NCBI GenBank assembly: GCA_009726135.1
Contig: WLIQ01000009.1
Location: 1-35,432 of the forward strand
DNA from: Actinomycetota bacterium
Lineage (GTDB): Bacteria > Actinomycetota > Actinomycetes > Nanopelagicales > Nanopelagicaceae
Length of the DNA stretch: 35,432 bases
Reading direction: 5' to 3'
The notes beneath the pieces are model-generated. The model was given only the letters and a program-made list of their open reading frames with translations. It had not been told where the DNA came from and ran no database searches. A program made the translations under genes and the position numbers. Shown one piece after another: positions 9,977-12,130 of the stretch. The first letter of the stretch is position 1; every line of letters starts with the position of its first letter.

Positions 9977-10531
9977 CTACTTACACTCGGCTAAGCGCGC
10001 CTTAACCAGCGCCAGAATCAACTTAGTATCAACGGCCCAATCATTGGGCACACCTATCGTCTTTTTCTTCACAACTAAATCAGTCATCTTGGGAGCAAAC
10101 TCTGCAATCACATCTGCGCTCCAGGGTGAGATCAAAATATGTTTGGTTGCAGCCGATGCCCCAAATATATAATCTGCACCGATTTTCATCATCGGTTGGT
10201 TCCAAGCAATAACAAGTTCTGCTTGTGGATATTTTGTTGCAATTGTTTTAAAGATTGCACGCATTGTCTTTGCCTGATCTTTGCCGATTGTCTTATAAAA
10301 AGCGGCTGGAGTATCAAATCTGCGCGTCGTTGTAGACCCCCGTGAATACATCACCAAGGCATTTGCATGTGCCTGACTAAATCCATGATTTTCACGCAAG
10401 TATGCAATTTGGGCTGGGTATTTCTCATCGGCCAGATCTTTCATCACTGAAAACCAGTAGGACATTTTGTGCCCATACTTCTTTTCGATAAGCGGAAAAT
10501 GCGCCTCGCGTGAATGATCTTTGAGAGCCAT
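9977..10531 (-). CDS. DUF4287-DUF1801 (YdhG-like) domain protein
   Basis: From the start chosen here the protein is 184 residues. The N-terminal half resembles DUF4287 (MSYWFSVMKDLADEKYPAQI, HGFSQAHANALVMYSRGS). The C-terminal half resembles DUF1801/YdhG (PQAELVIAWNQPMMKIG, AATKHILISPWSADVIAEF, GVPNDWAVD). Both domains are widespread and functionally uncharacterised as far as I know. The ORF track extends to 10642, but that would run across the heliorhodopsin start. A TATTAT box lies 6 nt before the ATG at 10531 (MALKDHS), so the shorter form is preferred. It is transcribed divergently from the heliorhodopsin with 48 bp between the start codons. Confidence 0.75.
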   Translation of the reverse strand: MALKDHSREAHFPLIEKKYGHKMSYWFSVMKDLADEKYPAQIAYLRENHGFSQAHANALVMYSRGSTTTRRFDTPAAFYKTIGKDQAKTMRAIFKTIATKYPQAELVIAWNQPMMKIGADYIFGASAATKHILISPWSADVIAEFAPKMTDLVVKKKTIGVPNDWAVDTKLILALVKARLAECK

Positions 10532-10537
10532 ACCCAA

Positions 10538-10543
10538 ATAATA
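10538..10543 (-). promoter_or_regulatory. -10 box of a leaderless promoter (TATTAT)
   Basis: On the minus strand TATTAT ends 6 nt before the ATG at 10531. It forms half of a compact divergent promoter pair with the heliorhodopsin box. Confidence 0.6.
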
Positions 10544-10567
10544 CCGAGAATTACTCACTACAACTGG

Positions 10568-10573
10568 CACTAT
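10568..10573 (+). promoter_or_regulatory. -10 box of a leaderless promoter for heliorhodopsin (CACTAT)
   Basis: CACTAT ends 6 nt before the ATG at 10580. It deviates from TANNNT at its first base but recurs with identical spacing at 9940-9945. Confidence 0.4.
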
Positions 10574-10579
10574 GTACTC

Positions 10580-11341
10580 ATGATTAAAGAAATCAACGCA
10601 TCCAGTATTCGCCGCTACAACATCATCGCCGGTATTTTCCACTTAGCTCAAATGCTAGTGGTCCTATCCCTTGCCAATGATTTCACGCTTCCAATCGTTG
10701 CCCGCTATATGGCTGGTCCACCGGGAAGCACATTTGCCCAGCCAATTACTTTGCTTAATACCCCAGTTGGTTTAGCCGTTGCAATCTTTCTTGGTCTCTC
10801 TGCTTTCTTTCACTTTCTTGTCGCATCACCGCAATATTTTGGCCGCTATCAAGCTGGCATAGCTGCACAACGCAACTATTTCCGCTGGGTTGAATACAGC
10901 ATTAGCTCCTCAGTGATGATCGTGCTCATTTCCCAGATTTGTGGAATCACTGATGTCGCGGCAATTGTTGCAATCTTTGGAGTTAACGCATCCATGATCT
11001 TGTTCGGTTGGTTGCAAGAAAAATATGAAACCCCTGGAAACGGTGGCTGGCTTCCATTTATCTTTGGCTGCATTGCCGGAATAGTTCCGTGGCTAGGACT
11101 GGTTTTCTACATCTTTGCAATCGGTGGCCCTGGCGATACAAAGGCCCCTGCATTTGTCTACGGCATCGTTATCTCACTCTTTGTGCTCTTTAATACCTTT
11201 GCCGTTGTGCAGTATCTGCAATATAAAAAAGTTGGCAAATGGAGCGATTACATCAGGGGAGAGAAGACCTACATCACTCTGTCTTTGATTGCTAAATCAG
11301 CGCTTGCCTGGCAGATCTTTGCATCAACGCTGATTCAGTAA
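10580..11341 (+). CDS. Heliorhodopsin
   Basis: The 253-residue seven-helix protein, from the start chosen here, matches the length of the founding heliorhodopsin 48C12. The retinal Schiff-base lysine is Lys239 in LSLIAKSALAWQIF, and the counter-ion glutamate is Glu105 in FRWVEYSISSSVMIV. His21 (FHLAQ) and His78 (FFHFLV) occupy the conserved internal histidine positions. FGVNASMILFGWLQEKY and FGCIAGIVPWLGL are also hallmark segments. Each key residue is two positions lower than in 48C12 as I recall its numbering. Heliorhodopsins bind all-trans retinal, sit inverted in the membrane and have a slow photocycle; most are not pumps and their role is unsettled. No retinal-synthesis gene is in the window. 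The ORF-track start at 10514 lies inside the divergent gene, so Met23 is preferred. Confidence 0.96.
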   Translation: MIKEINASSIRRYNIIAGIFHLAQMLVVLSLANDFTLPIVARYMAGPPGSTFAQPITLLNTPVGLAVAIFLGLSAFFHFLVASPQYFGRYQAGIAAQRNYFRWVEYSISSSVMIVLISQICGITDVAAIVAIFGVNASMILFGWLQEKYETPGNGGWLPFIFGCIAGIVPWLGLVFYIFAIGGPGDTKAPAFVYGIVISLFVLFNTFAVVQYLQYKKVGKWSDYIRGEKTYITLSLIAKSALAWQIFASTLIQ

Positions 11342-11347
11342 TTTGTA

Positions 11348-11719
11348 TTACTTGCGCAAGATGTTTATTAAGTAACTCAATCCAAACCCAAAACCTATGG
11401 TTGCATATACATAGCTAAACCAGGTCAGCTGCACAGGAATCATTAGAGTTAACACGCCGAGTGCAGTCGCGCTCACGCACATCACCTTTGCCACATTTGC
11501 AACACCTGCATCAGAGCTGTTCTCTGCGTTATTCCACATATTTCCAGCAAGTGCAACAAGGGTGGTTGCAATCATGCGCATAGACCAGACAAGGCCGTCA
11601 TTGCTATCAAAGCCAAGCAGGTCCAGAAATAGATTAGGGAGAACAAGTAGAAACAAGGCAGATGCACCAAAGACTAAAGATCCAGCTTTAAGGGTTTTTC
11701 TAATGGATGCGTGGTTCAT
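11348..11719 (-). CDS. Small four-helix membrane protein next to heliorhodopsin
   Basis: The 123-residue protein has about four hydrophobic helices (LKAGSLVFGASALFLLVLPN, SMRMIATTLVALAG, KVMCVSATALGVLTLMIP, FSYVYATIGFGFGLSYLI). I do not recognise a family. It is convergent with the heliorhodopsin gene, and only 6 bp separate the two stop codons. The TAATCT box 6 nt upstream of its ATG contains the stop codon of the preceding membrane-protein gene, so it has its own promoter despite being the second gene of a minus-strand pair. Confidence 0.7.
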   Translation of the reverse strand: MNHASIRKTLKAGSLVFGASALFLLVLPNLFLDLLGFDSNDGLVWSMRMIATTLVALAGNMWNNAENSSDAGVANVAKVMCVSATALGVLTLMIPVQLTWFSYVYATIGFGFGLSYLINILRK

Positions 11720-11725
11720 GCGTAA

Positions 11726-11731
11726 AGATTA
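11726..11731 (-). promoter_or_regulatory. -10 box of a leaderless promoter (TAATCT) overlapping an upstream stop codon
   Basis: On the minus strand TAATCT ends 6 nt before the ATG at 11719. Its first three bases, TAA, are the stop codon of the gene at 11729-12130. Confidence 0.6.
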
Positions 11732-12130
11732 CATCCCACTTTTTGGTTTTCCGCGCTTTAACAACGTAACAATCAGCCCAATCACTATCAGCAGCAACCC
11801 TACTGGCATAGTAATAATTAATAACCACAGATAAGTGCCAGTTCCTGAACCCTCATCAAACATAGAGGTTCTGCTTATAAGGGATGTAATAAAAGCAAGC
11901 ACGATTGGCAGAAAGGCAACTACCAGCCCTGCACGAATTAGCAGCATCTTCTTCACAAAAAAGATTATAAAGAGGACCAAGTCAAATAGACCCAAAAAGA
12001 GAATCAGAAACACAGCGCCAAAGCCGTTAGCACTTTGGTTGCCCTCTGTTACTAAGGTGGTGAAGTAGAGGTAGATAAGAACAGCATTAATCAAGCCTGC
12101 GCATATCAGGACGATTACCTTGGGCCGCAT
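11729..12130 (-). CDS. Small four-helix membrane protein
   Basis: The 133-residue protein has about four hydrophobic helices (VIVLICAGLINAVLIYLYF, GAVFLILFLGLFDLVLFIIFF, IRAGLVVAFLPIVLAFITSLI, YLWLLIITMPVGLLLIVIGLI) and a basic tail (LLKRGKPKSGM). The acidic/Gly loop FDEGSGTGTY separates helices 3 and 4. I do not recognise a family. It lies 9 bp upstream of the other small membrane gene on the same strand. The start is supported by a TATCCT box 6 nt upstream. Confidence 0.7.
   Translation of the reverse strand: MRPKVIVLICAGLINAVLIYLYFTTLVTEGNQSANGFGAVFLILFLGLFDLVLFIIFFVKKMLLIRAGLVVAFLPIVLAFITSLISRTSMFDEGSGTGTYLWLLIITMPVGLLLIVIGLIVTLLKRGKPKSGM

Follow-up and report, generated by a model that had tools for sequence, protein, structure and literature searches.

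The 35,432-nucleotide stretch of DNA analyzed here (the window) encodes an ordinary 48C12-type heliorhodopsin (HeR) of a Ca. Planktophila-like bacterium. Comparison of upstream sequences and gene order suggests that this gene is quite probably a self-contained, leaderless single-gene unit whose neighbors are mostly incidental. The window is contig 77 in a 1.37-Mb draft genome (84% complete) of the Ca. Planktophila type, the named relatives of which are Ca. Planktophila and other freshwater actinobacteria. The comparison covered 80 named HeR loci, each taken with flanks of up to 8 kb on either side, and 120 relatives were searched for HeR, which is present in 59 of them, and for each of the genes neighboring it in the window. 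The 80 loci are related, so that raw counts are not independent; parsimony counts on the HeR tree correct for this kinship.

The heliorhodopsin gene (10580..11341, plus strand) codes for a protein of 253 amino acids that matches Pfam family PF18761 (327.7 bits, cut-off 26.7) and NCBIfam family NF038020 (338.9 bits, cut-off 100) over the full length. Residues H21, H78, E105, and K239 were verified in the window sequence, with the Schiff-base lysine K239 located in helix 7 and the glutamate counterion E105 in helix 3; together with the family matches, they confirm the complete heliorhodopsin, with these four residues, reported in the first-pass annotation. K148, K216, K217, and K220 are kept as well. 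The closest solved structures belong to HeR 48C12 of subfamily 1, which also includes AbHeR (full-length match, 371 bits), and the retinal lysine, the counterion Glu105, His21/His78, and Ser235 are common to all these proteins. The protein itself is thus of a known kind. Unlike in HeR-48C12 and AbHeR, the window gene lies away from the glutamine synthetase (GS) locus, and position 151 is occupied by T, whereas many HeRs at the GS site carry E or Q. The retinal-producing beta-carotene dioxygenase PF15461 was found neither in the window genome, at 84% completeness, nor in the complete HeR-bearing genomes G014 and G015, while 11 other relatives encode it; these absences are not conclusive with regard to retinal supply. 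Two HeR genes are present in G030 (C19:672-1403 and C29:817-1542); one of them occupies the GS site, and the other belongs to the distant paralogs with Shine-Dalgarno leaders.

The sequence TGGCACTAT, located 6 nt upstream of the HeR start codon, contains a predicted leaderless promoter with the extended -10 element TGG-CACTAT (10565..10573, plus strand), kept as TGnCAnnnT in all nine divergent loci. Parsimony reconstruction on the HeR tree for the 60 bp preceding the ATG in the 80 loci gave 3 changes at position -11, 3 at -7 and 10 at -12, against a background of 31.2 changes on average (sd 4.1, minimum 23) at positions -60 to -17. The A(-11)/T(-7) pair, at an offset of 6–8 nt, occurs in all 80 scorable loci, comprising 26/26 at the GS site and 54/54 elsewhere. 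No position within -60 to -17 stands out among the 80 aligned upstream regions, and a shared operator is thus not indicated. Leaderless actinobacterial genes are characterized by a TANNNT-like box roughly 10 bp upstream of the start codon and by the lack of a Shine-Dalgarno sequence (PMC3160421). The HeR gene shows both features, the first T of the window box being replaced by C and accompanied by an extended TG; by this definition, positions -11, -7, and -12 are the key positions of the -10 element of a predicted leaderless promoter.

The controls comprised PanB, UppS, LeuA, the DoxX-like family encoded after HeR, and Shine-Dalgarno-led HeR paralogs. A Shine-Dalgarno core was detected in 12% and 7% of these HeR genes, about 90% being without it, and in 58–95% of the LeuA, UppS, and PanB genes of the same loci. 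The distant HeR paralogs of the genus (37–44% identical) have GGAG-type, Shine-Dalgarno-like leaders, indicating that the HeR box is not an artifact of the method. About 28% of the other called genes carry a TANNNT box at the same distance, and such promoters are therefore common here. The window subclade has C in place of T(-12), with the extended TG present at -15/-14. Of 16 losses of T(-12), 14 are accompanied by the TG, and in the remaining two a TANNNT box is located one base upstream. Compensation of the lost T(-12) by the extended TG is recurrent (Fisher 9e-11, uncorrected), but not significant after correction for relatedness; phylogenetically independent pairs favor it by about 4:1, so that it is only suggestive. 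The useful result is a predicted promoter footprint that belongs to HeR alone, is position-specific and extends across the lineage. No paper combining heliorhodopsin with leaderless transcription was found in the open literature searched, the coverage of which was incomplete.

Since this housekeeping-type -10 element would end 6–7 nt before the HeR ATG, transcription is expected to begin on the start codon or right next to it, which would yield a leaderless mRNA. With the predicted promoter contained within about 15 bp of the gene, HeR could have moved several times and remained expressed, whether to or from the GS locus, next to the DUF4287 gene or near other small genes. We infer a working promoter and leaderless translation from sequence conservation, and a sensory role from the literature; HeR would act as a slow photosensor that binds retinal, and any partner would probably be encoded elsewhere and act in trans.

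The changing contexts of the gene, like its conserved box, are directly observed. The HeR tree requires about five switches between the GS site and other contexts, at least three of them forced by well-supported branches. The window's own genome has leuA 54 bp after GS, with no HeR between them (locus L197), and in G015, G047, and G008 the GS-leuA gap, also without HeR, is 175 bp. The 53 non-GS loci display 31 distinct left and 32 distinct right HeR neighbors, including photolyase-related, SOUL haem-binding, glutaredoxin, S51 peptidase, and DoxX-like genes. Many of these neighbors seem to be light- or redox-related (photolyase-related DPRP, SOUL, glutaredoxin, DoxX-like; for example, L050:6339-7811). 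In the sister loci L032, L034, L033, L035, and L045, HeR is followed, with a gap of -1 to 9 bp, by a DoxX-like gene of the family that we take to be COG4270, and L048 and L049 contain a glutaredoxin gene downstream of HeR. Both arrangements resemble the HeR-associated COG4270/glutaredoxin operons (PMC8612252), while in the window neither gene adjoins HeR and the gene for a 123-aa protein occupies their place.

The GS site is the context behind the GS-regulation model. In the published scheme, a single promoter before NadE serves NadE, GS, and HeR together (PMC9529153), and according to published metatranscriptomes (PMC8612252) HeR occurs on joint transcripts with GS and NAD+ synthetase, so that read-through does occur. 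The HeRs of the NadE-GS-HeR-leuA locus, described for AbHeR (PMC9529153) and present also in IMCC25003 and P. versatilis, are orthologous to the window protein and 84–89% identical to it in the closest GS-site loci; IMCC25003 (L046) and P. versatilis (L084), published members of the GS group, are included in our locus set. Unlike these genomes, the window genome has a GS-leuA site without HeR, and its HeR is not directly downstream of GS and has different neighbors.

Conserved footprints at the GS site indicate separate predicted promoters for GS and HeR rather than a single one before NadE. In 23 of 24 loci, the GS gene beside HeR is preceded by a GTAAC-N6-GTAAC element (for example, L046:6600-6660), presumably a GlnR-type box, usually with a TTGGCA...ATG spacing like that of an extended -10 element. 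No GlnR-like element precedes HeR in any of 81 cases, and HeR has its own conserved -10 box in 26/26 GS-site loci. Taken together, these predicted signals argue against a single promoter for GS and HeR. The claim is that HeR has its own predicted start signal, and not that co-transcription never happens. A related TTAAC-N6-GTAA(C/T) form is located before GS in genomes without HeR at the GS site.

A first alternative is that HeR acts as a regulator of glutamine synthetase irrespective of its own genomic position, in trans once away from the GS locus. AbHeR binds GS and raises its activity both in vitro and in E. coli (PMC9529153), and HeRs away from GS retain the lysines implicated in GS binding, K216, K217, and K220, as well as K148. 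However, these lysines are near-invariant whatever the neighbor of HeR and, being kept equally at GS and non-GS sites, give no sign of a GS-specific interface. The reported Kd of AbHeR-GS binding, in detergent, is 100 uM, and GS has its own GlnR-like box while HeR has none. We consider this explanation unlikely.

The gene divergent from HeR in the window offers another candidate partner. It encodes a 184-aa protein (9977..10531, minus strand), the DUF4287 domain of which scores above the Pfam cut-off, while DUF1801, with 23.8 bits, is just under the cut-off of 27.2. The latter assignment is nevertheless supported by the fold: phmmer matches the protein to YdhG (2oc6), and its AF2 model matches 2oc6 and 9t2w in Foldseek (E 3e-7, TM by target 0.77–0.79), the PDB entry 9t2w being labeled frataxin-like. 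According to this model, the C-terminal half has a YdhG/frataxin-like fold; unlike the YdhG/DUF1801 proteins 2oc6 and 9t2w, the protein carries an extra N-terminal helical DUF4287 domain. Exactly 48 bp (10532..10579) separate its start from the HeR start codon, as originally annotated; the range of that annotation (10532-12130) began at this gap and left the DUF4287 gene outside. A second predicted leaderless -10 box, TATTAT (10538..10543, minus strand), is located 6 nt before the DUF4287 ATG; across loci the TATTAT/TATTCT box lies 6–7 nt upstream of the start. The proposal of two opposing leaderless -10 boxes in a compact divergent gap is supported by alignment of the nine divergent loci, all of which keep the predicted HeR box and a TATTCT-like DUF4287 box, while the center of the gap is not conserved.

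Whether the two genes form a functional pair, in which light sensing is combined with a putative iron/redox-type protein and the shared 48-bp regulatory region is kept by selection, is a separate question. Eight relatives (L031, L032, L034, L047, L048, L049, G008, and G015) share a colinear block that runs between the stop codons of DUF4287 and HeR, and in most of them the alignment breaks at the outer gene ends, beyond which the neighbors vary. Conservation of both predicted promoters and the frataxin-like label of the YdhG family in the PDB are also consistent with such a pair. The adjacency, however, is limited to one subclade. In most genomes the DUF4287 gene is elsewhere, at distances from a few kilobases in some relatives to between 79 and several hundred kilobases in the complete genomes G014, G040, G052, G065, and G068, and many orthologs far from HeR have their own predicted leaderless box. 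In L035 HeR has no DUF4287 neighbor, and in L045 two other genes lie between them. Co-occurrence in the genus is weak (41 genomes with both genes, 12 with HeR only, 11 with DUF4287 only and 9 with neither; p = 0.08), with G011 and ten other genomes containing DUF4287 but not HeR. Because two predicted promoters share 48 bp, their overlap alone would be enough to hold the genes together and would explain the adjacency equally well. Of the partnership proposed in the first-pass annotation, what stands is the conserved adjacency within one subclade, where the pair may matter; as a general functional pairing it appears improbable. In the close relative G011, itself 87% complete, HeR was not found, and the DUF4287/YdhG gene (contig C8, L158; 86% identical) has no adjoining HeR.

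Two membrane proteins encoded on the other side of HeR are the weakest candidates. The gene for the 123-aa protein (11348..11719, minus strand) does end 6 bp from the HeR stop (junction 11342..11347), and the co-directional gene for the 133-aa protein (11729..12130, minus strand) is located upstream of it. Their description as four-helix proteins of no recognized family also holds: neither reaches a Pfam or NCBIfam family, the 123-aa protein is modeled by AF2 as four long helices and a short one (pLDDT 94), with no confident PDB fold match, and the 133-aa protein has four hydrophobic stretches. That they are HeR partners, as their membrane location and the 6-bp convergent spacing might suggest, is very improbable and already refuted as a conserved association, since the genes are rare (13 and 11 of the 120 relatives, respectively, counting the window genome in both), are missing from most HeR genomes, do not co-occur with HeR (p = 0.74) and adjoin it in no other of the 80 loci. 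By the test set out when they were proposed, namely conservation beside HeR in related genomes, they fail, and a partner role is rejected on the basis of synteny and co-occurrence.

The junction itself is peculiar to the window genome. The 133-123 pair, kept also in L049, has the same orientation in the complete genome G015 and is found there 6.5 kb downstream of HeR; in G015 the alignment with the window stops at the HeR stop and restarts at the 123-aa gene, and about 6.4 kb of other genes at the junction site align with nothing in the window (blastn). In L048 the HeR start and the 123-aa gene are 7.1 kb apart, and in L049 both small genes are located 5.6 kb from the HeR start. Since the 123-aa gene thus lies about 5–7 kb from HeR in three relatives, a recent deletion would be the simplest reading of the 6-bp spacing; misassembly in the draft genome is possible. 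To the right of these small genes, the window carries an extended series of genes for sugar-type ABC transporters, SDRs, and sugar processing (12805-35363), which is not common to HeR relatives at this position.

The reading of HeR as a self-contained leaderless unit may be carried further. It is plausible, with a chance that we put at slightly below even, that HeR of Planktophila-type bacteria is never in a true operon with GS and is a portable one-gene unit with a constitutive promoter, the GS site being one of several interchangeable locations, so that its function would be independent of its neighbors. If so, the GS neighborhood behind the GS-regulation model would be only one of several interchangeable HeR sites. 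The function of HeR has been guessed mainly from its neighbors, and published models took genes of predicted operons as its partners. Because these neighbors change repeatedly while the predicted promoter of HeR stays fixed, inference from gene neighborhood appears to be weak in this abundant freshwater lineage.
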